Shown here: piece by piece, positions 6,512 through 29,731 of the stretch | Layout of the letters: the number at the start of each line of letters is the position of its first letter | Numbering within the stretch: position 1 is the stretch's first letter | DNA from: Hysterangium stoloniferum | Lineage: Eukaryota > Basidiomycota > Agaricomycetes > Hysterangiales > Hysterangiaceae | DNA length: 64,000 nt | Direction: 5' to 3' | Assembly: GCA_015178975.1 (NCBI GenBank) | Contig: WHVD01000032.1 | Span: 186,001 to 250,000, forward strand | The notes under the pieces: generated by a model | What the model saw: the letters and a program-made list of their open reading frames with translations, nothing else | Database searches by the model: none | What the model was told of the DNA's origin: nothing | Translations under genes and position numbers: made by a program

Positions 6512-7246
6512 TGTTACGACTGTGTCACAACCCTATTGGCCCCAAGGTTATTGCCACTTATCAACGATTCAAGTTACTGTTCAAGTCACCACTTTGGAAA
6601 CCCTCAGCCCCGAAGCTGATGTATGTTTTCACGATGATCAAACTCTGTTTACACCCACATCAAAATATCTCGTATTGTCTGGTTAAACTTTTGATACGTC
6701 CCTTTTATTATGTTGATACGTTCAATCTTATGTTTCACATATGTCTATCTATATTTGTAGTCCTTGAACTATTTCCTTTTATTGTAATCCCGCTCTCAGT
6801 TATCATTGGCCTCCGAACTAATCATAAACTTCCTGTTCCTAGTCAAGCTTATTGTTAATACCGTTTTCCACCCTTCTCCCCGTTAGTATTTTCTAGACGC
6901 CTGTTACTTGTATATGAACCCGCTGTAGTTGTAGTTACTAGGCAATCAGAATATCGACTCAGAATACCCTCATACGTCTGTAACAGTCTCATACTAAGAA
7001 TCCCCCCATCCACCTTCGCGTGCGCTCGCCCACTCCCGGCCCCGACCCCTTGGCCCGAGGCTCGACTTGTCCTTCGGTCCCGATTGGTATCTTGCTGAAA
7101 GGAACTCTTTAGGATTAGTCTTTGCCCATCCGAAATCTAAGGACACCCTACGGACATTTGCGAGGGCGCAGCACATAAGCTGAAGCCAAGTCCTTCCGAT
7201 TGGTCCCTGTCGGCCACCGACATTAGTCAGTTTTCAGTTCTTAACA
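6512..7246 (+). repeat. 5' LTR of gypsy A
   Basis: The 735-bp repeat starts TGTTACGACTGTG and ends AGTTCTTAACA. It contains a TATA box at about 6909-6915 and a predicted transcription start at 6944. The U5 part holds GCGCAGCACATAAGCTGAAG at 7166-7185, which recurs in unrelated-looking solo LTRs of this window. Confidence 0.92.
6908..6944 (+). promoter_or_regulatory. Gypsy A LTR TATA box and start of R
   Basis: TTGTATATGAACC provides a TATA-like box at about 6909-6915. About 30 bases downstream, 6944 begins AATCAGAATAT, the 11 bases complementary to the primer site. In self-priming elements the transcript must start exactly there, so box and primer pairing support each other. Confidence 0.7.
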
Positions 7247-7284: not shown

Positions 7285-8583
7285 ATGCCCCCGAGAAAAA
7301 ATGCCAAGCCAAGCGGCGAAGCAGAATCTTCCACTCTCAAGTCTCCTTTCCTGTATACAGCCCGAGCTACTCAGAGAACCCCGCTACCAGAAACCTCCGA
7401 AGAATCTCGCTTCGTGGAAATTACTGGCGATGCTGAAGAAGCAACTGAAGCAACCGAACCCGAAGCAGCTGAAGAGATTAACAATCAACCAGTTCCGGAA
7501 CACAAACCCGAGGATGGCGACCAACCTCAGGCTAGTGGTTCCAAGAAGTCCACGAAAAAGAAACCGGCTCTCGACCCTGAAGAGACATGGGAATTGTTCT
7601 CAGGTACTCTAGGATCCCTTAATGAATTCCTTAAAAGCAATATCAAGGAAAAGGAATCTGGGCAAACCCGAGTCAACAAACCTGAACCATTCACTGGCTC
7701 AAACCCGAAGAAATTGCAGACATTTCTTATGCAATGTCGATTCAACTTTCAGGACCGCCCGGCTGCATTCGCAACGGATGACCGAAAGGTAAACTTCACA
7801 CTCTCATACCTTAAGGATTCCACAGCAGCCTGGTTTGAACCCGCATTCTCTGGCCTCACCTCTGAAGATCCCGATTGGCTTCACGATTGGGATGCCTTTG
7901 TTGAGGAACTCGAAACCAACTTCGGTCCCTACGACCAAACCGGCGATGCTGAAACAGCGCTTTCTAATCTCAAAATGAAAGACACCCAGCGCATCACCGA
8001 TTACATTGTCCAGTTCAACAACCTCGCCATGCGTTACGACTGGGGCGATTCGGCCCTCCGTTACCAGTTTTACTCTGGCCTTCCGTCTCGCCTCAAAGAC
8101 GAAGTTTCCAAAGGAGAGACCGGCAAGCCAAAGACCCTCCCTCTCATGCGTCTGAAAGCCCAAAATGCAGATGCCCGATACTGGGAACGACGTTCGGAAA
8201 TTAGTCGCGAAAACCCCTTGGACAAGAAATTGTCAGACAATAAGAATGCCAACAAGTCTGGTAATCAAAACACCAACAACAGTGGCAACTCGACCTCCGA
8301 TAAGAAGTCCGAAAACAAAGGGGCTAACGACAAAAAAGGCAAGGGTAAACAGTCAAATAAGTCTCAAGACAAAGACAAACCCAACTTAACTGGCAAACTC
8401 GGCTCCGATGGCAAGCTCCTACCACAGGAAAAGCAGTGCCGAATGGACAACAATCTTTGTTTGTTGTGCGCAGATCCCGGACACCGAGTCGCTGCATGCC
8501 CAAAAGCCACAAAAGCCCGATCGGCCAATATGGCCATGACCTCACAACCGGCCAAGCCAGCTGCCGAGTCGAAAAAAGATTAA
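7285..8583 (+). CDS. Gypsy A gag polyprotein
   Basis: An uninterrupted 432-residue frame starts at the ATG 25 bases after the primer site. Gag forms the virus-like particle and packages element RNA in the cytoplasm. The first 100 residues are charged and low complexity. Residues about 120-290 look like the retrotransposon gag domain, with FLMQCRFNFQDRP and AWFEPAF typical of fungal gypsy gag. A lysine/asparagine-rich linker leads to one CCHC zinc knuckle near residue 390, CLLCADPGHRVAAC, with spacing CX2CX4HX4C for RNA binding. Unlike pol, it has no internal stop. Pol lies in the -1 frame and overlaps its end, so a programmed -1 frameshift is plausible but no slippery site was identified. Confidence 0.9.
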   Translation: MPPRKNAKPSGEAESSTLKSPFLYTARATQRTPLPETSEESRFVEITGDAEEATEATEPEAAEEINNQPVPEHKPEDGDQPQASGSKKSTKKKPALDPEETWELFSGTLGSLNEFLKSNIKEKESGQTRVNKPEPFTGSNPKKLQTFLMQCRFNFQDRPAAFATDDRKVNFTLSYLKDSTAAWFEPAFSGLTSEDPDWLHDWDAFVEELETNFGPYDQTGDAETALSNLKMKDTQRITDYIVQFNNLAMRYDWGDSALRYQFYSGLPSRLKDEVSKGETGKPKTLPLMRLKAQNADARYWERRSEISRENPLDKKLSDNKNANKSGNQNTNNSGNSTSDKKSENKGANDKKGKGKQSNKSQDKDKPNLTGKLGSDGKLLPQEKQCRMDNNLCLLCADPGHRVAACPKATKARSANMAMTSQPAKPAAESKKD

Positions 8584-11500
8584 GCAACTCTCTGGATTCT
8601 GTGCGGTTGGAGAGTTGCGTTGAATCTCCTCGCACACCGGAAAATTGTCACCTTAACGCATCCGCCTTGTATGATCCTAATTCCTTGTTCATAAATCTTA
8701 CTTCGGAACCTCTTGGGAATCTCACTTTTCAAGCCCTCATAGATTCAGGTTCAACCCATTGTTTTATAGATACAAGTTTTTCCCGAAGAAATCAGTTAAA
8801 AACCTATGCAATAGACCCAATTCTGCTCCAACTCTTTGATGGTACCTCAAACTCCATAATCTCACAAACCTGTGAACTCCGACTTAGGTTCCTGTGTGGA
8901 ACCTTTCAGACAGTTACGTTTTTTGTAACACAGTTGGACCCGAGTTGCTCCATGGTTCTAGGACATAACTAGCTCACCCGCTACAATCTGTTGATTGATT
9001 GGGTATTGGGCAGTATCCATTTCTGAACCTCATTGTCACCCGATACGACTGGTCCGTTTCCACCTGTTTCGGCAAATATGGCCTCTACAGCACCTCCGGC
9101 CCCCGTGGCAAATCCGAGCTCTCTGCCGCCCGTCTCTCTAATAAACACCGCAGCTTTTATGAGAGCCATCAAGTTGGATGGCTCCCGAGCATTTGCAGTC
9201 AATCTTAAAGTTGACGAAGTCACCAGTCGCTTTGCATCCCCGGTGGCCGACCTAATTGCAGATTTGGAAGGTGTTCCCAAAAAATACCATGAATTTGCAG
9301 ATGTCTTCAGTAAACAAAAAGCTGATCGACTCGCCCCTCACAGGCCTTACAATTTGAAAATTGATATTGAAGATGGTGCACATCCGCCCCTAGGCCCAGT
9401 TTATCCTCTCTCACAGTCCGAATTATCGGCTATCCAAGATTTTTTGGATGAACATTTGGCTATAGGTTTTATCCGACCCTCAAAGTCTCCTTATGGAGCC
9501 CCTGTCCTATTCGTTCGGAAAAAAGATGGTTCCCTTCGACTTTGCATTGACTTTCGAGGACTAAACGCGATCACTCAAAAAGATAAGTACCCATTACCAC
9601 GAATCTCCGATTTACTCTATGCCCCTCGGAAGGCCCGAATTTATACAAAGATAGATCTCAAGCACGCCTATCATATGGTTTGGATTGCCAAAGGTGACGA
9701 ATGGAAAACGGCTTTTTGCACTCGCTATGGCTCCTTTGAATGGTTAGTGATGCCTTTCGGCCTCACCAACGCTCCGTCGGTCTTTCAATGTTTTATCAAT
9801 GACATCTTTTCCAACCTCCTCAACGTCTTTGTCATTGTGTACTTAGACAACATCCTCATATTCTCCGAAGATCCTACACTTCATGATGAACACGTTTGTG
9901 AAGTTCTCCGAAGACTCCGAAAACATGGTCTTTTTGCAAATGGTAAAAAATATTCCTTTGATGTCGACACAGTTGAATATTTAGGTTTTATGATAGGACC
10001 TGACGGTCTCCGCATGGACAACTCTAAAATTCAAGTCATTGAAGATTGGCCAGAACCCCGAAAGGTTAAGGATATTCAATCCTTTTTAGGCTTTGCCAAC
10101 TTTTATCGTCGTTTCATTCACAACTACTCAAAAATTACCATTCCGCTCACTCATCTTACTCGTAAAGATGCCCCGTGGATTTTCTCCGAAGAATGCTGAT
10201 TGGCATTCCAGGAATTGAAAAGTGCGTTTACATCTGCCCCTATTTTGTCGCACTGGAAGCCCAACGTTCAACTCATCATGGAAACTGATGCCTCAGACTA
10301 TGCGCTTGCTGCGATATTGTCCATTCTGGACACCGATGGTGAAGTACACCCAGTAGCTTTTCTGTCTCACACGTTTTCGGCGCCTGAACTCAACTATGAT
10401 GTTCACGATAAGGAACTACTCGCAATATTTGAAGCTTTCAAGACATGGCGACATTATTTGGAGGGCTCGGCCCACCCGGTAGATGTTATTACAGACCACA
10501 AAAATTTAGTTTACTTTTCAACCACAAACCTTCTCACCCGTCGACAAGCTCGATGGTCTGAATACCTCTCTGCTTTCAACATGGTAATTCGTTTCCGTCC
10601 CAGCCACCTTAGTGGAAAACCTGACGCTATGACTAGATGATGGGACATCCATCCTAAAGAGGGGAGTAGTGACTACACCACAGTTAATCCACATAATTTC
10701 AAGCCTATGTTTTCATCGGAACAACTGTCCGCGTCTATCCGAGCCACTTACCTCATTCATCCAGTCTTGCAAAGTGTTATCCTTATGGATACCGAAAAGT
10801 TACATCAAGACATACTATCGGCAATTCCATTAGACCCAGTCACCAAAGCACACCTCGATAACCTGTCCGACCCCAATCAACCCCGATGGTCATTAGACCC
10901 ACAAGGTTTCATTAGATTTGACAATTGCATTTATGTACCGGATTCCGACACCCTTTGGCTGCGAATCCTACAACATAAGCACGACCACCCAATCTCGGGA
11001 CATTTCGGCCTCAATAAGACCCTCTCACTCATTAGAAGAGAATATACATGGCCCGGCATCTGAGATTTTGTTAAGCACTATTGTAAATCTTGTACTACAT
11101 GTTTACGCTCTAAATCACAGTGACACAAACCATATGGCCTACTCAAACAATTACCGATACTGGAAAAACCTTGGAACTCGATTTCTATGGATTCATTGAG
11201 CACCTACCGGCATCCGAAGGTCACATAGCAATCCTAGTTGTTGTGGATCAGCTCACAAAACAAAGTATTTTCATTCCAACATATGACACAATAACATCTG
11301 TACAGTTAGCTGAATTATTTGTCACCCATGTATTTTCCAAGCATGGCGTTCCATCGCATGTCACATCCGATCGCGGATCCGAGTTTGTCTCTCACTTCTT
11401 TAGGTCACTCGGGAAAGCACTAGACATGAAGCTACACTTCACTTCCGGCTATCACCCGGAAGGTGATGGCCAAACCGAACGCATGAATCAAACCTTGGAA

Positions 11501-15368: not shown

Positions 15369-15879
15369 TATGTCTATCTATATTTGTAGTCCTTGAACTA
15401 TTTCCTTTTATCGTAATCCCGCTGTCAGTTATCATTGGCCTCCAAACTAATCATAAACTTCCCGTTCCTAGTCAAGCTTATTGTTATTACCATTTTCCAC
15501 CCTTCTCCCCGTTAGTATTTTCTAGACGCCTGTTACTTGTATATGAACCCACTGTAGTTGTAGTTACTAGGCAATCAGAATATTGACTCAGAATACCCTC
15601 ATACATCTGTAACAGTCTCATACTAAGAATCCCCCCATCCGCCTTCACATGCGCTCGCCCACTCCTGGCCCCAACCCTTGGCCCAACACTCGACTTGTCC
15701 TTCGGTCCCGATCGGTATCTCGCCAAAAGGAACTCTTTAGGATTAGTCTTCGCCCATCTGAAATCTAAGGACACCCTACGGACATTTGTGAGGGCGCAGC
15801 ACATAAGCTGAAGCCAAGTCCTTCCGATCGGTCCCTGTCGGCCACCGACATTAGTCAGTTTTCAGTTCTTAACAATTTT

Positions 15880-16448
15880 TTAAATCCAAATCACATCACT
15901 CCATCTATATTCAATTCCCAAGCCCCACCTCACACTATTTCTGATGATGTTACTTCCAAGCCATCAAAGCCTAGCATTACCATTGCTACTCCCTCAGTTC
16001 CTTTACCAAAATTAGAGCAATTATCACCATCTCCCAACTTCATGTCTAAAAAACATCTCAAGGCTTTACAATCATCTATCAGACCAATGGAGAATAAAAA
16101 AGTTCAAGACTGGGATGGATGGCCTGATGGTGAATGGTCACATCAGTTTACACATTCTGAATATGAAGTCCTCAACAAGTTATCTGTTCACTGGGCAACT
16201 GTAGTGCTAGGTGGGGATAAACACCATGATATAAATTCTCCAACTTTAGATCATGGAAAGCATACAAAACGTAAATGTTTGGGTATCATACATTGCAAAA
16301 ATCCTGACTGTGATATTATCATTCAGCCTCAGACTAGAGATACTGGTATTCAAAAACAATTAAACCACAGTTGTGACTGTGGATGGAATTTACAACATGT
16401 GATATGCAATGTATTGTCCACAATTATTCATTATAAGAATGGGATTAT
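15880..16448 (+). pseudogene. Mutator-like element: GCM/WRKY-type zinc finger exon
   Basis: The frame NPFGYF restored across the gypsy site runs through a Ser/Pro-rich segment into MSKKHLKALQ and then a cysteine/histidine module: KCLGIIHCKNPDCD, about 20 residues, then HSCDCGW and HVIC. This order resembles the WRKY-GCM1 zinc fingers found at the N-termini of many fungal Mutator-like transposases, where they bind element ends. The exon is uninterrupted to 16448, where solo LTR 1 is inserted. Continuation at 16997 gives YHNGGTHLHQ. Confidence 0.7.
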
Positions 16449-16991
16449 TGTTAAGTGCCGTGTCGGGAACTTATTCTGGAACTATCGGAAAGTCACCGGG
16501 AAGTCAGGAACTATCGGATAGGGTCAGGACGTCATCTTCAGCTTATGTGCTGTGCCTCTACGCAAACGCTCAAAGTCCTTCATTTCAGAGGTGAGACTTA
16601 CAATGGAAGATACAGACATTCAGAGTTCCGAAGAGTTCCGAATATTGAGCGTACAGAAAGACGGGAGAAGGAATAAGAAACTAAGTCGATATCAGATCTA
16701 AGGTAAAGTACAAATTCGCAGAAACTAATATAAGTCTACTCGTTATTGTACTACAAACTAAGACCATAATAAGACGGAAACGGAAGTGTTCTTAAAATGG
16801 AAATACAATAAGACATATTAGGGAGACAATATTCCAAAACGGGAATACAACAAACAAACGAGTGAATACTTGTCAACAGACAAATTACCAAATGGGAACA
16901 AGGGAAGAATGTGGATGATACGGTAACTATGATGTTCTGTAGTCGGAGATCAGAAGTCGGATATTGAAACATCCGGGAACAGGTCGTAACA
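16449..16991 (-). repeat. Solo LTR 1 (family S)
   Basis: This 543-bp copy starts TGTTAAGTGCCGTG and ends GGTCGTAACA. A perfect 5-bp duplication ATTAT lies at 16444-16448 and 16992-16996. Sense orientation is minus, judged by the shared U5 motif. There is no internal retroelement sequence, so it is a product of LTR-LTR recombination. Confidence 0.92.
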
Positions 16992-17165
16992 ATTATGTAT
17001 CACAATGGTGGGACACACCTTCACCAATGACCTACTCATAGACTCCATCTTCTTGCCAATGAAAGATCTCAGCTCCACCAAATATTTCAGCAACATCCAA
17101 AATGGGATCACTACAATTAGCTGTTGGTATTCCTGGATTTTCTGGTCCAGGTAAATCTGTCACAG
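16992..17165 (+). pseudogene. Mutator-like element coding segment between solo LTRs 1 and 2
   Basis: It encodes HNGGTHLHQ, a TGA where CGA is expected, then RLHLLANERSQLHQIFQQHP. One missing A shifts the frame, after which GSLQLAVGIPGFSGPGKSVT can be read. This stretch links finger and catalytic domain in related elements. It continues in frame at 17714 with EISPVLLNVDRVRYEKKIV. Confidence 0.7.
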
Positions 17166-17708
17166 TGTTATGACCCGTTCCCAGATGTTTCAATATCCGA
17201 CTTCTGATCTCTGACTATGGAACATCATAGTTACCGTATCATCCGCATTCTTCCCTTGTTCCACATTTGGTAATTTGTCCGTTGACAAGTATTCACTCAT
17301 TTGTTTGTTGTATTCCCGTTTCGGAATATTGTCTCCCTAATATGTCTTATTGTATTTCCGTTTTAAGAACACTTCCATTTCCGTCTTATTATGGTATTAG
17401 TTTGTAGTACAATAACAAGTAGACTTATATTAGTTTCCATGAATTTGTACTTTACCTTAGATCTGATATCGACTTAGTTTCTTATTCCTTCTTCCATCTT
17501 TCTGTACACTCAATATTCGGAACTCTTCGGAACTCTGAATATCCATATCTTCCATCGTAAGTTTCATTTCTGAAATTAAGGACTTGAGCGTTTGCATAGA
17601 GGCGCAGCACATAAGCTGAAGCTGACGTCCTGACCCTATCTGATAGTTCCCGACTTCCTGGTGACTTTCCGATAGTTCCGGAATAAGTTCCCGACATGGC
17701 ACTTAACA
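17166..17708 (+). repeat. Solo LTR 2 (family S), opposite orientation
   Basis: This 543-bp copy, inverted relative to solo LTRs 1 and 3, runs from TGTTATGACCCG to GCACTTAACA. The duplication CACAG occurs at 17161-17165 and 17709-17713. Sense orientation is plus. Confidence 0.92.
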
Positions 17709-17713
17709 CACAG

Positions 17714-17961
17714 AGATATCCCCAGTTCTATTAAATGTTGATCGTGTTCGGTATGAGAAGAAAATTGTTCACAAAGGAAATAATATTATTGGAGGGACTG
17801 CAGAATCAGGATTAGAACAGCTATCTGAGTTTGGATCTTGTCACTCTGATTTTCTACACTATAGTGAGGTTGAACCAACTACAATCCTTGTACTTCAAAC
17901 TTCTTGGATGGAGCTACAAATAATGCTAGATGTTGTTCAGTATGATGCTGTCCATGGATTT
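17714..17961 (+). pseudogene. Mutator-like transposase, N-terminal catalytic segment
   Basis: It encodes EISPVLLNVDRVRYEKKIVH through ILVLQTSWMELQIMLDVVQY. With the third LTR excised, this joins at 18511 to GFVSDAAHGYW, where the SDAAHGYW Asp is the likely first catalytic residue of the MULE domain. The frame is open throughout. Confidence 0.75.
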
Positions 17962-18505
17962 TGTTAAGTGCCGTGTCAGGAACTTATTCCGGAACTATCG
18001 GAAAGTCACTGGGAAGTCGGAAACTAGTGGATAGGGTCAGGATGTCAGCTTCAGCTTATGTGCTGCGCCTCTACGCAAACGCTCAAAGTCCTTAATTTCG
18101 GAAGTAAGGCTTACGATGGAAGATACGGATATTCAGAGTTCCGAAGAGTTCTGAATATTGAGTGCACAGAAAGATGGGAGGAGGAATAAGAAACTAAGTC
18201 GATATCAGATCTAAGGTAAAGTACAAATTCGCGGAAACTAATATAAGTCTACTCATTATTGTACTACAAACTAAGACCATAATAAGACGGAAACAGAAGT
18301 GTTCTTAAAACGGAAATACAATAAGACATATTAGGGAGACAATATTCCAAAACGGGAATATAACAAACAAACGAGTGAATACTTGTCAATGGACAAATTA
18401 CCAAATGTGGAACAAGAGAAGAATGCGGATGATACGGTAACTATGATGTTCCGTAGTTGGAGATCGGAAGTCAGATATTGAAACATCCGGGAATGGGTCG
18501 TAACA
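17962..18505 (-). repeat. Solo LTR 3 (family S)
   Basis: This 544-bp copy runs from TGTTAAGTGCCGTG to GGTCGTAACA. The perfect duplication GATTT lies at 17957-17961 and 18506-18510. Sense orientation is minus. Confidence 0.92.
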
Positions 18506-21786: not shown

Positions 21787-22085
21787 TTAGATATTAACAA
21801 TATCCTGAAACAGTCCTACATCCAATTATTCCCTGATAGTCTACCTTTTGAGGATCTTCCTAAACATACACAACTATTTCAAGACCTACTAAAGCACTTG
21901 TAGTATATACAGTATAGCTAGGTACTACCATTCTCTGGCACCACCATAGATGTTGACAAAGAAGCCATTGGATTACTTGAACATGAAATGTTTCAAACTT
22001 CAAAAGCAGCAGGGTCTGCTGGTCTTCAATAATGGAGATTGTATGTAGGTAATCATCAGAACAAATAGAGTCCATATTTTTTGTT
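21787..22085 (+). repeat. Diverged partial duplication of the Mutator-like 3' exons
   Basis: About 300 bp repeat the text of 21046-21330 (ATCCTGAAACAGTC, then TTTGAGGATCTTCC, GAAGCCATTGGATTACTTGA and GTAATCATCAGA) with many substitutions and small indels. It is a direct repeat lying downstream of the element stop and is not coding. Confidence 0.8.
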
Positions 22086-22111
22086 CCCTGCTCTTGGAAT
22101 GAAATCCTTGA

Positions 22112-22139
22112 CCCTAACCCTAACCCTAACCCTAACCCC
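22112..22139. repeat. Interstitial telomere-type repeat
   Basis: Four perfect CCCTAA units are followed by CCCCTAA. TTAGGG is the usual fungal telomere unit. The array is short and internal, directly after the duplicated Mutator-like fragment. Confidence 0.85.
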
Positions 22140-22258
22140 TAATGTGTTTTCTGTACATAATTTTCATTTAAAGAGCATATAGCACAATATAGAGCATTTG
22201 ACATAAAGTATTTGACATTTTCTAGAGCCTCTGTGATCCACAAGTAAAGTTCTTTCAG

Positions 22259-22339
22259 TGTCGCGGCAGTTCCTTCCTAATTAGGAAGTGCCATGACAAC
22301 TGCGCAAAATTACCCAATTAGGAAGGAACTGCTGCGACA
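22259..22339. mobile_element. 81-bp inverted-repeat element
   Basis: 24-bp arms starting TGTCGCGGCAGTTCC and ending CTAATT are inverted around a 33-bp centre with one mismatch. It resembles a miniature inverted-repeat element or a foldback end. No clear target duplication was found. Confidence 0.55.
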
Positions 22340-22899
22340 TACAGGTTTTTTGTGTAAACCTAGAACCCATGTCATTTAAAAGTTATATTTTGTTATTTTT
22401 GGACTCTGTTATGTATTTCTAAGTTTTTTCCAATTTTTAAACAATTTCCCCTAACAAATTGCGAAAACAAATATTCAAATGTAATTATATTGCGACGATT
22501 AAATTGTACAATATTTGTTTGATTTATCCTGAATTTATACAATTTATTTTGTATTTTTATCTAATAAATTGAGCAAGTAATTGAATTTCTACTTTTTATT
22601 CTTTTTTGATTAATATGTCGGCGACTCAGCGCTTATTCACAACGCGCGAGTAATCATGTGACATTCACATGATATTTCAAACTCCGACGCCGACAAAACG
22701 CGATTTGAAATACTCGCGCATTATCAAGGCGAAATATATATATTTTTATATTATTATAATAAAATATTATATTTATAACTAACTAAAAGTAAATATAATA
22801 ATTATATAATAATATAAAACCGGCCTGGCGTTTATTACACGGCGCGCGGGAAAATCGTCACAACGAGTGACAACCATCATAACAGGTGACAGTTGTCAC

Positions 22900-22990
22900 A
22901 AAGGCGCGCGACGGTCACAGAGGCGTGCGACAGTCACAGAGGCGCGCGACGGTCACAGAGGCGCGCGACTGTCACAACGCGTGACAGTCA
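22900..22990. repeat. GC-rich tandem repeat in the palindrome arm
   Basis: About four units of an 18-bp motif, GGCGCGCGACGGTCACAGA-like, alternate in an otherwise AT-rich arm. The mirror copy lies at 25796-25886. The short open frames here come from the repeat and are not considered genes. Confidence 0.8.
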
Positions 22991-23322
22991 CAAGACGCGA
23001 AGGGTGTCATGCGCGCGCACAGGCGCGAGAGCATTATGTCATCATATATGCTACTGCAACAAAAACAGGAAACTCTCTGGAACATTCCAGTGGCTTCCAA
23101 TGGAACATTAGTTAATAGGTACTAATATTAGATAGAATATTGTAGAATATTCTATAAAATTCTACAATGTTCCATTATGCCAAGAATATTCTATAGTGTC
23201 TTAGAAGTAGTTAGAACCTTCCACAATGCTCTAGAAAATTCTAGAAAATTCTAAATGACATCACTCCTCCCAGAATGACATCATTAAATCTTCTAGAATC
23301 TTCTAAATGTCTCAGACTAAAA

Positions 23323-23358
23323 TGTATATAAGGAGCTCAGCTCCAGCCTTGAATAAAA
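23323..23358 (+). promoter_or_regulatory. TATA box and AATAAA of the left arm
   Basis: GTATATAAGG near 23324 is followed about 28 bp later by AATAAA. This is the usual U3/R arrangement of an LTR. The mirror copy serves the minus strand near 25430-25463, so the two promoters point towards each other across the centre. Confidence 0.55.
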
Positions 23359-23414
23359 AATCAATCAATCATATTATCATATCATCTCACCACATCTGTG
23401 TGTGTCACTGCAGC

Positions 23415-23800
23415 AAGCAGGCTACTCCACCCCTATCTGGGCAGTTGGATATCTAATTCCACCTCTATCTGAGCTGTTGGAAACCCTTGCCACCTCTATC
23501 AGAGTTGTTGGCCCAATCAGATCCCTTGTCACCTCAATCTGAGCTGTTGACTGATCTGCTGTTCTCCTGTCACCTCAATCTGAGTTGTTGACTTTTGTTC
23601 CCCCTTGCCACTTCTTAATTGAATAGTTGGCTATCTTTTATATATTATTTCCACCTCAGTTAGAGTAGTTGGTTATCAATCAATAATATATAAATAATTT
23701 TATACTATAGTCACCTCTTAATTGAGTATTGATTATTAGTTTTCTTTACATTGTTATTTGTAGTTTAAGACTTCAGTCACCTCTAGTTGAGTAATTTGAC
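23415..23800. repeat. Degenerate tandem array in the palindrome arm
   Basis: Eight or nine units share CCACCTC, a short A/T spacer, TGAG and GTTGG or GTTGA, with irregular spacing of about 40-75 bp. The short CTC..GAG inversion inside each unit recurs. The mirror copy lies at about 24986-25371. Confidence 0.6.
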
Positions 23801-24372
23801 TGTTTATTGCATTACAAATAATCCCTGTTCTATTGTTCATTCATTGTGAATCAGTAAAGCATATTCACATAAACAAATACTGAGAATATCCTTGCAGAAT
23901 CCTTAAGACTACATTAAGATCCTGATAAGTTAATATCACAGTAGACCTTGTAGGTTAGTGTAAATAAAGCATATATTAGCCAAATAGTGTTTTATTCTAT
24001 ATCTAATCTTTTGACCCGTTTATAAATATTTTTACTGTTTGACAAATAGTATAAAATATATATAAACTAGCTAGCATTGAAGTTAAATCTAGCTTCGGAA
24101 TCAGTAAATTGTTATTCTTGTTTTAGTAGTTGTTATCACAGAAAAAGAACAAGCTTGCACAAGCAGCTCTCAAAACCTTCTTTGCGAAGTAGGGTGCATA
24201 TATTCAAGTAAACTCTTGACTTCAGAGGTTCTAAGTCTATTTAGGCTGCCACTGATTAATATCAAATACTTAAATTATTTTACCTTGTAGTGAATTGAGT
24301 ATTTGCACATTTTGATAGAGCATTGGACTCCTTTTTCGGAAAATAGTATTAAAATAAGGCTAATACATTACA

Positions 24373-24413
24373 ACGAAAGGTCCTGGGTTCAATTCCCAGA
24401 ACGTCCACCAATT
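24373..24413 (-). promoter_or_regulatory. Palindrome centre: tRNA 3' half in primer-binding position
   Basis: On the plus strand the 41 bp contain a perfect T-arm (CTGGG, loop TTCAATT, CCCAG), an acceptor strand AACGTCC, a discriminator A and CCA at 24408-24410. Read on the minus strand, the right LTR ends ATTACA, then AAT, then TGGTGGACGTTCTGGG, exactly where a tRNA primer site belongs. Similarity to tRNA continues for about 37 nt into CCTTTCG and then meets the end of the inverted left LTR after one base. A CCA encoded in DNA suggests the sequence was copied from a mature tRNA. The amino-acid identity could not be assigned. Confidence 0.65.
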
Positions 24414-26379
24414 TGTAATGTATTAGCCTTATTTTAATACTATTTTCCGAAAAAGGAGTCCAATGCTCTATCAAAATGTGCAAATACTCAATTCACTACA
24501 AGGTAAAATAATTTAAGTATTTGATATTAATCAGTGGCAGCCTAAATAGACTTAGAACCTCTGAAGTCAAGAGTTTACTTGAATATATGCACCCTACTTC
24601 GCAAAGAAGGTTTTGAGAGCTGCTTGTGCAAGCTTGTTCTTTTTCTGTGATAACAACTACTAAAACAAGAATAACAATTTACTGATTCCGAAGCTAGATT
24701 TAACTTCAATGCTAGCTAGTTTATATATATTTTATACTATTTGTCAAACAGTAAAAATATTTATAAACGGGTCAAAAGATTAGATATAGAATAAAACACT
24801 ATTTGGCTAATATATGCTTTATTTACACTAACCTACAAGGTCTACTGTGATATTAACTTATCAGGATCTTAATGTAGTCTTAAGGATTCTGCAAGGATAT
24901 TCTCAGTATTTGTTTATGTGAATATGCTTTACTGATTCACAATGAATGAACAATAGAACAGGGATTATTTGTAATGCAATAAACAGTCAAATTACTCAAC
25001 TAGAGGTGACTGAAGTCTTAAACTACAAATAACAATGTAAAGAAAACTAATAATCAATACTCAATTAAGAGGTGACTATAGTATAAAATTATTTATATAT
25101 TATTGATTGATAACCAACTACTCTAACTGAGGTGGAAATAATATATAAAAGATAGCCAACTATTCAATTAAGAAGTGGCAAGGGGGAACAAAAGTCAACA
25201 ACTCAGATTGAGGTGACAGGAGAACAGCAGATCAGTCAACAGCTCAGATTGAGGTGACAAGGGATCTGATTGGGCCAACAACTCTGATAGAGGTGGCAAG
25301 GGTTTCCAACAGCTCAGATAGAGGTGGAATTAGATATCCAACTGCCCAGATAGGGGTGGAGTAGCCTGCTTGCTGCAGTGACACACACAGATGTGGTGAG
25401 ATGATATGATAATATGATTGATTGATTTTTTATTCAAGGCTGGAGCTGAGCTCCTTATATACATTTTAGTCTGAGACATTTAGAAGATTCTAGAAGATTT
25501 AATGATGTCATTCTGGGAGGAGTGATGTCATTTAGAATTTTCTAGAATTTTCTAGAGCATTGTGGAAGGTTCTAACTACTTCTAAGACACTATAGAATAT
25601 TCTTGGCATAATGGAACATTGTAGAATTTTATAGAATATTCTACAATATTCTATCTAATATTAGTACCTATTAACTAATGTTCCATTGGAAGCCACTGGA
25701 ATGTTCCAGAGAGTTTCCTGTTTTTGTTGCAGTAGCATATATGATGACATAATGCTCTCGCGCCTGTGCGCGCGCATGACACCCTTCGCGTCTTGTGACT
25801 GTCACGCGTTGTGACAGTCGCGCGCCTCTGTGACCGTCGCGCGCCTCTGTGACTGTCGCACGCCTCTGTGACCGTCGCGCGCCTTTGTGACAACTGTCAC
25901 CTGTTATGATGGTTGTCACTCGTTGTGACGATTTTCCCGCGCGCCGTGTAATAAACGCCAGGCCGGTTTTATATTATTATATAATTATTATATTTACTTT
26001 TAGTTAGTTATAAATATAATATTTTATTATAATAATATAAAAATATATATATTTCGCCTTGATAATGCGCGAGTATTTCAAATCGCGTTTTGTCGGCGTC
26101 GGAGTTTGAAATATCATGTGAATGTCACATGATTACTCGCGCGTTGTGAATAAGCGCTGAGTCGCCGACATATTAATCAAAAAAGAATAAAAAGTAGAAA
26201 TTCAATTACTTGCTCAATTTATTAGATAAAAATACAAAATAAATTGTATAAATTCAGGATAAATCAAACAAATATTGTACAATTTAATCGTCGCAATATA
26301 ATTACATTTGAATATTTGTTTTCGCAATTTGTTAGGGGAAATTGTTTAAAAATTGGAAAAAACTTAGAAATACATAACA
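24414..26379 (-). repeat. Right LTR-like arm of the palindrome
   Basis: This is the exact mirror of the left arm. Its minus-strand end at 24414 borders the primer-site-like centre. Its outer end adjoins the duplication GACTC at 26380-26384. Confidence 0.7.
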
Positions 26380-26384
26380 GACTC

Positions 26385-26975
26385 TAATAGGTTGATTTGA
26401 GACTCAATATTGCTCAAGGAAGGACTAAAATTAAGGATGTGCCAATTAAGTAGTGCCCAAGATATATTTCACCAGGAAATTGTACACTAGATATGATATT
26501 TATCATGTTTTGATGCTCTAATATCAAATATAATTGTATTTTTGTGAATTTCCAACACAAATTTGAACAAGTATCTACTTGTTTTGAAAAAAAAAAACAT
26601 GTCGTGGCACTAGCCCGGCAGCGTGACACCCTGCACGGCACTTTCCTATAGCCCGGAGAACAGCCTTCCCTTGATTTAATTTGGAGAAGTGCACAGCCCC
26701 ATCGTGTCAGCCACCGAGAGGAACTTGGCTTGTTACACTATAGGTCTGGCTTTCAGGAAAACATTGCGGGGGTTTATTGTAAAACCAGATGGAATAAACC
26801 ATGAATACTCGAAGAGCTCAGTTGAATCTGTAGGCAGCTGCGACAAGGTTGATAAACAGATGTGTGTACTGTTGAAATTGGTGATGAGAACACTCTCTTT
26901 CCTAGGGGCAGTTTACCCATTTCTTCAATTTTTCATATGAAGATGCTAATTGTGGACCATGCATTCTGAGACTAA
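26385..26975. other. Repeat-derived intergenic stretch
   Basis: No gene was recognised. Positions about 26866-26975 recur inverted at about 54890-55010 (CTAGGGGCAGTT, CATTTC, then GATGCTAATTGTGGACCATG), so at least part is a dispersed repeat, perhaps an element end. A run of A and GC-rich CGGCACT-type motifs lies at 26588-26660. Confidence 0.5.
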
Positions 26976-27468
26976 GGAGGATATCTGAAAACTATTAAGT
27001 ATACCAAATTCTAATATACTCTAAAGGTCATCTAAACATCTGGGATGTGATTCAAACATAATTTGGTTTTTAAAAATTTCAAAAAGTTTTAAACTCTCTC
27101 ATACATTACAAACTAAAGAATCTTTATGGACATGAGTAGACAATAAAAAAAATTTAATACTTTGAAACACTAATACTTTTAAAAAATACATACCTTTAGA
27201 TAGTCTATTCCATGCATATGTATAGCATTGGCACCTCTAAATACATATGTATTACTTTGGAATGGATCTGTCAATCTGAACAGATTTCTACTTGATTCAA
27301 CATACCCAGAATATATAGGTGATTTCACCCAACTAAGAAAGTCACAGGACAAAAAAATTTCCAATGACATCTCACATATTTTACTGGGAAATAACGACAG
27401 TTTAACTTTTGAAAAACAAATTACTAACAAATGTATTAGCAAGTATTTACATAACTTGGAAAGCTATT
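26976..27468 (-). repeat. About 490-bp dispersed repeat, copy 1, with a possible coding exon
   Basis: It starts GGATATCTGAAAACTATTAAG and ends near ACATAACTTGGAAA. A copy at 29082-29569 is collinear with scattered substitutions. On the minus strand both copies keep an open exon (FLSWVKSPIY, SRNLFRLTDPFQSNTY, IHMHG) ending DYLK before a donor-like AAG/GTATGT or GTATCT. The family is not recognised. Confidence 0.7.
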
Positions 27469-27479
27469 CAATGGGTCAA

Positions 27480-29079
27480 TGTTGTGGAGTTTTTGATTTT
27501 GTACATGTTACGTATGACTGAATAAAATCTTGAATATCTTGTTGGAGCATAGCCAAAAGAAATCTCAATATATTGTTCAATATGTTTTCATTTGACTGAA
27601 ATGACCTGTGGTAATATGATCATGTCTTGATTGAAGATTTCAAAGTCAAATATTTTGGTAATGTAAATTCTGTTTCAGAAACATAAAAAGTCTTGTTTGT
27701 TCTGTTGCCAATCTTCCTCAGTACTGTCAGAAATCTGTTGAATTTTGTCAAGAGTAAATTGATCTTCTTTTTGAGCTTTGAATATATCTTTCAATAGTTG
27801 ACCTGTATCCATAATAAGAGTAGCTTTTCTGGCTATTGGAAGATAATATGTTGCATGTAAGGAAGCTTTGATTTATTCATTCGTAAATACCAATCAAAGA
27901 TTAGTCAGATTCTTTTTTGAGTAGTCAGGTTCATTTGGATAAACATCATTTCTTCTTGAAAAAACATCTGTTTTCAAATTTAGTTTTCCCAGTCAAAATC
28001 GAATAATTAGATTGAAAGTCGATAAATATTCTGCCCATCGAGCTTGTCATCGAGACAAAATTCGAGTTGTTGCAAAATACTCGAGATTCTTGTGATCCAT
28101 CAAAACTTCAATTGGTTCTTTTGTTCCTTTGAAATAATGTCGCCAAATTTTGAAAGACTCGAATATTGCCAATAATTCTTTGTCGTAAGTATCGTAATTG
28201 ATTTCAGAGGTCAAAAGAGTTCTTGAATGATAAGCAACTGGATGAATTTTGTTATCAGGAGTCTGCATAGAAAATATTGAAGCTATGGCATGATCAGAAG
28301 CATCAGTTTCGAGTATAGGTTTATAATCTGGATTCCAATGAATTAAACCAGAGCTTAGTAAATTCTTTTTTCAAATAGTTAAATGCATGTTGGCATTTTT
28401 CATCAAAATGCCATTGAACCTTTTTTTGAGTAAGTCGAGTCAATGGTAAAACAATTTCAGAATAACTTGGAATAAATCTTCAATAGAAATTTGCAAATCC
28501 TAAAAATAATTGAATGTCATGGACTTTTTGTGGTTTGGGCCAATCTTGAATAACTTTGATTTTTTCTTGATCCATATATACACCTTGAGGAGAAATAACA
28601 TATCCTAAACATTCAACACTGCTTTTGTGAAATTCACATTTTTTGGGTTTTACAAATAATTGATTTTGTTGAAGCCATTGAAGAACTTCTCAAACATGTC
28701 ATAAATGTTCTGCGAGATTGTCAGAAAATATTAATATGTTGTCAAGATAGATAATTACCCAAATATCAAGTAAATCTGAAAATATTTCATTCATTAATTG
28801 TTGCAAAGTTGCTGGAGCGTTGCATAGTCCAAAAGGCATAACCAAATATTTGAAAGATCCATATCAAGTCCAAAAGGCTGTTTTCCATTTGTCACCTGGA
28901 GCAATCCTAACTAAATTATAGATGCCTCAGAGATTGATTTTCGTAAAATATTTCACTGTTCAAAGTCAATCCAAAGGATCAGGAATTAAAGGAAGTGGAT
29001 ATCGATTTTTTCAAGTAATTTTATTAAGTCCTCGATAGTCAACACAAAGTCATAGGCTTCCGTCTTTTTTCTTGGAGGA
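27480..29079 (-). pseudogene. Gypsy B pol fragment: RT and RNase H
   Basis: On the minus strand the text runs from KKDGSL and CVDYRGLNKIT through [18 protein letters not shown] and [11 protein letters not shown] to an RNase H domain (LETDASDHAIASI, SEINYDTYDKELLAIFESFK, ARWAEYLSTFN). Integrase is absent because homology stops at the repeat near 27480. Stops are frequent, mainly TGA where CGA is expected, and frames shift. The RT catalytic box reads YLDN. It was separated from its 5' half by the repeat at 29082 and by Tc1/mariner element 2. Confidence 0.85.
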
Positions 29080-29569
29080 TATCTGAAAACTATTAAGTAT
29101 ACCAAATTCTAATATACTCTAAAGGTCATTTGAACATCTGGGATGTGATTCAAACATAATTTGGTTTTTAAAACTTTCAAAAAGTTTTAAACTCTCTTGT
29201 ACATTATAAACTAAAGAATCTTTCCAGACATGAGTAGACAATAAAAAAAATTAGTAGTTTGAAACACTAATACTTTTAAAAAATAGATACCTTTAGATAG
29301 TCCATTCCATGCATATGTATATCATTGGCACCTCTAGATACATATGTATTACTTTGGAATGGATCTGTTAATCTGAACAGATTTCTACTTGATTCAACAT
29401 ACCCAGGATATATAGGTGATTTCACCCAACTAAGAAAGCCACAGGACAAAAAATTTCCAATTATATATCACACACTTTACTAGGAAATAACTACAGTTTA
29501 GCTTTTAAAAAACAAATTAACAACAAAAGTATTAGCAAGTATTTACATAACTTGGAAAACCATATACAA
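29080..29569 (-). repeat. About 490-bp dispersed repeat, copy 2
   Basis: Collinear with copy 1 at 26976-27468. It interrupts the reverse transcriptase of gypsy B just after KKDGSL-type text. About 160 bp of unrelated AT-rich DNA follow before the Tc1/mariner element. Confidence 0.75.
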
Positions 29570-29731
29570 TAGGTTCTATTAATTGACTCTGAATTGTTTA
29601 GGATGTAATATGGAGAATTGTTTCTTATGGTTGGTGGCTAACAATATAATAGTCTCAGAATAGATACTGCTACATATTTAAAGATGGAGTTTTGTAGCAA
29701 TTTTGCTTTTATTAGTAAACATTTGATATTA

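Follow-up and report, generated by a model that had tools for sequence, protein, structure and literature searches.

The retroviral plus strand, as described in the available part of PMC13191261, normally halts before m1A58 of the tRNA and runs on when the tRNA is unmodified; in HIV-1, minor plus-strand products pass m1A58 and stop at the modified nt 37, and products that do not end at 58, 55 or 54 are said there to be inactive as templates. We describe here a locus in the genome of the fungus Hysterangium stoloniferum that appears to record such an over-run plus-strand intermediate, known elsewhere from work in the test tube and in infected cells. We consider it highly probable that this locus, a 4-kb palindrome, is an integrated reverse-transcription accident of a gypsy-type LTR retrotransposon that uses tRNA-Ala(CGC) as its primer.

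Two kinds of chromosomal element resemble the palindrome in part. DIRS-1 has inverted LTRs as the palindrome does; in the portion of PMC5633606 available it carries ORFs between the LTRs and a tyrosine recombinase, whereas the palindrome has no coding region and is bordered by a 5-bp duplication. A solo LTR shares with the palindrome the missing internal region, the 5-bp duplication and probably the same integrase, but it is one LTR between target duplications, whereas the palindrome comprises two inverted LTRs and a tRNA copy, which LTR-LTR recombination does not explain. DIRS-like elements are not known to make a target duplication, and the palindrome differs from them by the duplicated GACTC and by the mere 39 nt that lie between its arms.

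An inverted pair of LTRs inserted in a dispersed repeat

The window analysed is a stretch of 64,000 nucleotides (C246:186001-250000), and the genome searched comprises 111 Mb in 554 contigs. Each of positions 22407-24373 of the window is the complement of its mirror position (the two adding up to 48786), 1967/1967 in all, after which the two sides diverge, both at the centre and outside; chance is excluded as the source of a perfect inverted repeat of this length. The gap-free inverted arms reported in a preliminary description of this DNA are thereby confirmed, and its arm length of 1967 bp holds for the extent of the perfect match, the LTR itself being 1966 bp and the 1967th base belonging to the linker (Table 1). 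A self-comparison of the kind that description had proposed, made with a second program, returned the same identical inverted pair with a spacing of 39 nt, its outer ends drawn 8 nt further, across the duplications. The outermost sequences of the palindrome are TGTTATGTA / TACATAACA.

Table 1. Features of the palindrome, in window positions
Feature	Position	Strand	Basis
Target-site duplication GACTC, left copy	22402..22406	.	once at the join in paralogous empty sites
Left LTR, 1966 bp, TG...CA, U3 outward, U5 inward	22407..24372	+	whole-length relatives in genome
TATA-like box, left LTR (mirror 25454-25461 on -)	23325..23332	+	consensus match only
AATAAA, possible poly(A) signal, left LTR (mirror 24818-24823)	23963..23968	+	consensus match only
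Single A beyond left LTR, first base of AAT linker	24373..24373	+	linker comparison
DNA copy of mature tRNA-Ala(CGC) nt 40-76, 37 nt (CCA 24408-24410)	24374..24410	+	exact match to intron-less CCA-tailed tRNA
Over-extension, 19 nt, tRNA nt 40-58, past the normal stop	24374..24392	-	absent from 16 sites compared
Ordinary 18-nt primer-binding site, tRNA nt 59-76	24393..24410	- (right LTR's sense)	16/16 sites
Linker AAT, right LTR to primer-binding site	24411..24413	- (right LTR's sense)	same at other subfamily sites
Right LTR, 1966 bp, inverted, same sequence as left	24414..26379	-	arm comparison
Target-site duplication GACTC, right copy	26380..26384	.	direct sequence reading

The outer flanks of the palindrome differ from each other, and the sequence into which it inserted is a dispersed repeat. 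When both flanks were joined through one GACTC into a 278-nt query, many copies were found, several of them running through the join and the top one at 98% (best 40 of 212 candidates). GACTC stands once at the join in 5 of the 6 paralogous copies fetched, namely four and L086, the latter with a small deletion just beyond the join; in the sixth, L085, the join was unread. The GACTC duplication claimed for both edges is thus present, the existence of empty sites reading GACTC once is borne out, and these sites together with the differing flanks uphold the earlier view of a discrete insertion. Inverted repeats of short length (GTCGCGGCAGTTCC...) were noted in the target repeat (window 21900-22406 and 26380-26700), as was, near 22110, a run of telomere-like (CCCTAA)n.

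The window holds further repeats. Another LTR element has direct repeats of ~507 bp, 94.9% alike (6740-7246 and 15369-15874), that are likely LTR parts, with frames for gag (7285-8583) and RT (9033-10199) inside it. A ~544-bp repeat occurs three times at 16442-18505, once inverted, the copies being 92-93% alike. Just downstream of the palindrome lie direct repeats of 503 bp, 92.6% alike (26976-27476 and 29074-29574), whose starts are 2.1 kb apart and which are possibly the ends of a small LTR element without genes.

The preliminary description had called the arms LTR-like, and each does contain a complete 1966-bp LTR of a probable gypsy-type element; the search for single-arm copies that it suggested found many whole-length relatives in the genome (best 40 of 1205 candidates). 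We compared 42 LTR loci, keeping the 37 that were whole-length and unsplit and dropping five with split or partial matches. A primer-binding site follows three of the 37 and a polypurine tract, GAGAGGGG-ATTT, precedes two (L027 and L066). Among the 32 without a visible element an exact 5-bp duplication is found at 30 and is lacking at two, as expected if the same integrase had inserted them and the palindrome. Repeated matches at a 19-bp GC-rich tandem repeat that lies inside the LTR (window 22894-22970) were seen in the LTR copies on contigs C34, C259 and C531, as if the repeat had expanded there.

The source family thus has TG...CA LTRs with a 5-bp duplication, a primer-binding site complementary to a tRNA, and a polypurine tract. 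Its full element lies at C59:54774-64579 (LTRs L026 and L027) between target duplications ATTCA. The long frame of this element gave a weak protease match only, and the domain scan detected neither RT nor integrase in it; an 892-aa part of the frame has a relative at 37% identity in the agaricomycete Clathrus columnatus (among 8 protein relatives). The sister copy L078, identical in its U5 end and primer-binding site, matches RVT_1 and RNase H and has a weak protease match; the RNase H models matched are what we take to be a mark of gypsy-type elements. No integrase domain was found in the scanned stretches of the two elements, which in L078 do not extend beyond its long frame. The C59 element may rely on the sister family, with which it has U5 end and primer site in common.

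The arms differ at 0/1966 sites, which places their divergence below about 0.15%, whereas the 37 other LTR copies, compared in all 666 pairs, differ by a median of 1.7%; the one closest to the arm differs from it at 33/1966 sites. The LTR pairs of two elements differ at 10/1985 and 5/2005 sites, the latter pair lying on contigs C255 and C17 and being treated as one element by a shared ATAAC and matching ends. The identity of the arms would be compatible with either a recent insertion or arm-to-arm conversion. In a tree the end branch of the arm is 0.014 (median 0.0078). Private changes number 4 in the arm, where the 37 other copies have a median of 2; a strict count over the 27 nearest sequences gives the arm 5, among the highest. 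An old age with arm-to-arm conversion, as the long branch and the private changes might be read, was dropped, the counts being small.

The tRNA-Ala(CGC) copy at the centre

The 39 nt between the arms, in which the preliminary description had missed the tRNA, consist of a 37-nt copy of half a tRNA and two linker bases. The 3' region of this tRNA is common to four genes with 0 to 2 differences, and CCA is encoded by none of the four. The genes score as tRNA in Rfam. ARAGORN at default settings reported no tRNA in the window nor in three of the four tRNA loci and called the C431 locus tRNA-Ser, a call that was set aside; with introns allowed it recognised in the C1 gene a tRNA-Ala(CGC) interrupted by an intron of 9 nt. 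The spliced tRNA folds into acceptor, anticodon and T stems, but is not distinguished in this from shuffled sequences (z -0.80). Rfam matches over the centre itself (miRNA, virus element, tmRNA) were below gathering scores and were taken as effects of the palindrome or of the tRNA piece.

In the whole genome a query that includes the CCA has an exact match at the palindrome only; five other places match with 2 mismatches, two of them tRNA genes and three primer-binding sites of a third LTR family. The palindrome is also the only place outside the genes at which a whole-genome search found the 19-nt over-extension sequence. The centre was most likely copied from a mature tRNA, because the spliced, CCA-ended form is matched exactly at the palindrome only and the four genes are without CCA.

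The same tRNA end recurs in the family. An LTR end, an A-rich linker and TGGTGGACG occur together at 27 exact places in the genome, including the palindrome, and with up to 3 mismatches the LTR end and primer-binding site are found, in two subfamilies, at 33 places (the palindrome among them) in one and at 25 in the other. At all 16 distinct primer-binding sites compared from the two subfamilies the identity to the tRNA ends after 18 nt (nt 59-76), a match that allows C or T at place 10, where the sites vary as the tRNA gene variants do. In the palindrome, in contrast to these 16 sites, identity continues mismatch-free for 37 nt, to nt 40. The third LTR family (L034, L035, L036) has a TAAAC linker and the same tRNA 3' end; its primer sites match the tRNA over 20 nt except at place 9 (in one of them also place 10) before the match ends, and the 20-nt reach may be due to chance. 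Judged from these sites, tRNA-Ala(CGC) is the primer of the arm family.

Origin of the palindrome

The LTR arms, the CCA-bearing tRNA copy that reaches beyond 18 nt, the duplication and the empty sites are all established by the sequences, and we infer the following order of steps behind them. Plus-strand strong-stop DNA, consisting of U3-R-U5 and the linker, would have copied the attached tRNA past the A58 stop to nt 40. A58 was copied as plain A, which suggests an under-methylated tRNA primer; the break at nt 40 is 3 nt short of nt 37, and m1I37 is usual in eukaryotic tRNA-Ala. The over-long tRNA end would have been unable to complete the second strand transfer, as the sequence that follows the 18-nt primer-binding sites does not match the tRNA. 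A second LTR-only cDNA of the same origin, whose U5 end had kept one linker base, would then have become attached by that end to the U5/tRNA end of this dead-end LTR cDNA, and the resulting linear dimer would have carried U3 at both of its termini. Integrase could have inserted this dimer via two U3 ends instead of U3 and U5, with the 5-bp duplication of the family, which points to that enzyme; two U3 ends could serve since the two termini of the LTR, TGTTATGTA and TGTAATGTA, repeat each other almost exactly in inverted orientation (8/9 positions the same).

The joining may have been effected by an end-to-end jump of RT or by host end joining, and the extra A at the junction fits both alike. 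No microhomology is visible at the U5-U5 junction, so that RT jumping, host end joining and the self-priming considered below are all possible. Against the proposed accident stand the single case on which it is built, the failure to find an integrase domain in the stretches scanned, the 18-nt limit, which is not universal as the three sites of the third family reach 20 nt, and an extra trimming step needed for two clean U3 ends, because the over-extended strand first pairs with a minus strand that extends beyond U3.

A variant that is possible but to our judgement unlikely concerns the joining step only: the over-extended strand would have snapped back and, primed by its own end, copied its own LTR into a closed hairpin that later became a linear duplex and was integrated. 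The over-extended tRNA copy is common to this course and to the joining of two cDNAs, so that our estimates for the two overlap. A single molecule would suffice for self-priming and would make the identity of the arms automatic. A hairpin that the copied T-arm can form, at ~ -4.7 kcal/mol when DNA parameters are used, may place the end close to the linker, and the first base copied fits, being a T opposite the first linker A. On the other hand no pairing of the 3' end with the linker is visible, and a hairpin has one U3 end, so a further round of synthesis would be required before integration.

The preliminary description compared the locus to Mu killer, in which a transcribed hairpin yields small RNAs that silence its family. 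That the palindrome is a functional hairpin-RNA locus of this kind strikes us as very unlikely. The TATA-like and AATAAA matches in the arms would favour it, as would the Piwi-domain matches in the genome, which make silencing conceivable; the TATA matches do point inward, as had been said of the promoters, though they are consensus matches only. AATAAA, however, precedes the centre in LTR-initiated transcripts, and the stem of a transcript begun at the TATA box of the LTR would be ~1 kb long, unlike the ~2-kb hairpin RNA envisaged. A single such locus was found when exact U5 ends were searched, and silencing would in any case be a possible later effect and not the origin of the palindrome.

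It is highly improbable that the two LTRs arrived separately, a solo LTR being joined later by an inverted one, or that they were brought together by a rearrangement such as fold-back break repair. In favour of this, LTR ends that lack a primer-binding site abound (797 U5 ends against 33 with the site); but there is a single pair of GACTC around the whole unit and no duplication between the arms, the arms are identical where 37 other copies show a median difference of 1.7%, and at the join there is a tRNA copy ending in CCA. In substance this origin is already refuted by the centre with its CCA and by the single duplication. Two inverted solo LTRs ~6.6 kb apart were seen on C441 (712611-714579 and 721175-723123), each with its own 5-bp duplication; unlike the palindrome, this pair is by its duplications the result of separate insertions.

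Perfect palindromes are a known class of artefact, yet an inverted chimera or hairpin read from library or assembly hardly merits credence, as differing flanks, an exact 5-bp duplication and empty paralogous sites are unexpected from a fold-back read, and a non-palindromic centre built from the family's own primer tRNA both speaks strongly against such an artefact and points to the origin of the palindrome.

Solo LTRs and comparison with retroviral products

In the whole genome the palindrome is the only place where the exact U5 end TACATTACA stands on both sides of a gap of 22-52 nt; the search took in exact TACATTACA ends, copies ending in TACATCACA lying outside it. The arm family has 797 U5 ends but 33 primer-binding sites and the sister family 656 but 25, ends and sites having been counted with different mismatch limits; the palindrome accounts for two of those 797 ends and one of those 33 sites. 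The high solo-to-full ratio was discarded as proof that LTRs are born solo, since it is high in both subfamilies and fits recombination and direct insertion alike. It is nevertheless conceivable, if rather doubtful, that LTR-only cDNAs from failed strong-stop synthesis are ordinary integrase substrates for which two U3 ends suffice, that an appreciable part of the family's hundreds of single LTRs entered the genome as such, and that the palindrome is the rare revealing dimer. Were this common, it would challenge the view of single LTRs as products of recombination only. The CCA-ended half-tRNA between inverted LTRs is a precise signature that can be searched for in any eukaryotic genome.

We recognised no integrated LTR-tRNA-LTR palindrome in a full-text literature search in which subscription journals were thinly covered. 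Parts of the structure have nonetheless been met with in HIV. A reverse-transcribed tRNA-Gly at a deleted HIV provirus, described in the available part of PMC12220202, resembles the palindrome in that a tRNA cDNA was inserted together with DNA of an LTR element. In the accessible part of PMC5618025, aberrant HIV-1 2-LTR circle junctions likewise join LTR ends that retain primer-binding-site or tRNA sequence. Those junctions are U5-U3 and unintegrated, whereas in the palindrome U5 meets U5 in inverted orientation and the whole is integrated between copies of a duplicated target; the direct U5-U3 arrangement of a 2-LTR circle is thus not what is seen here. The over-extended plus-strand strong-stop DNA of HIV-1, P5, resembles the palindrome in having copied the tRNA past m1A58 and halted near nt 37, and the portion of PMC13191261 at hand describes it as unusable for the next step. 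P5 (PMC13191261) is an intermediate made on tRNA-Lys3 by a retrovirus, whereas the palindrome is a chromosomal insertion in a fungus that involves tRNA-Ala. The palindrome would thus represent one fate of such an over-long product, an LTR-only cDNA joined U5 to U5 and integrated by its U3 ends.
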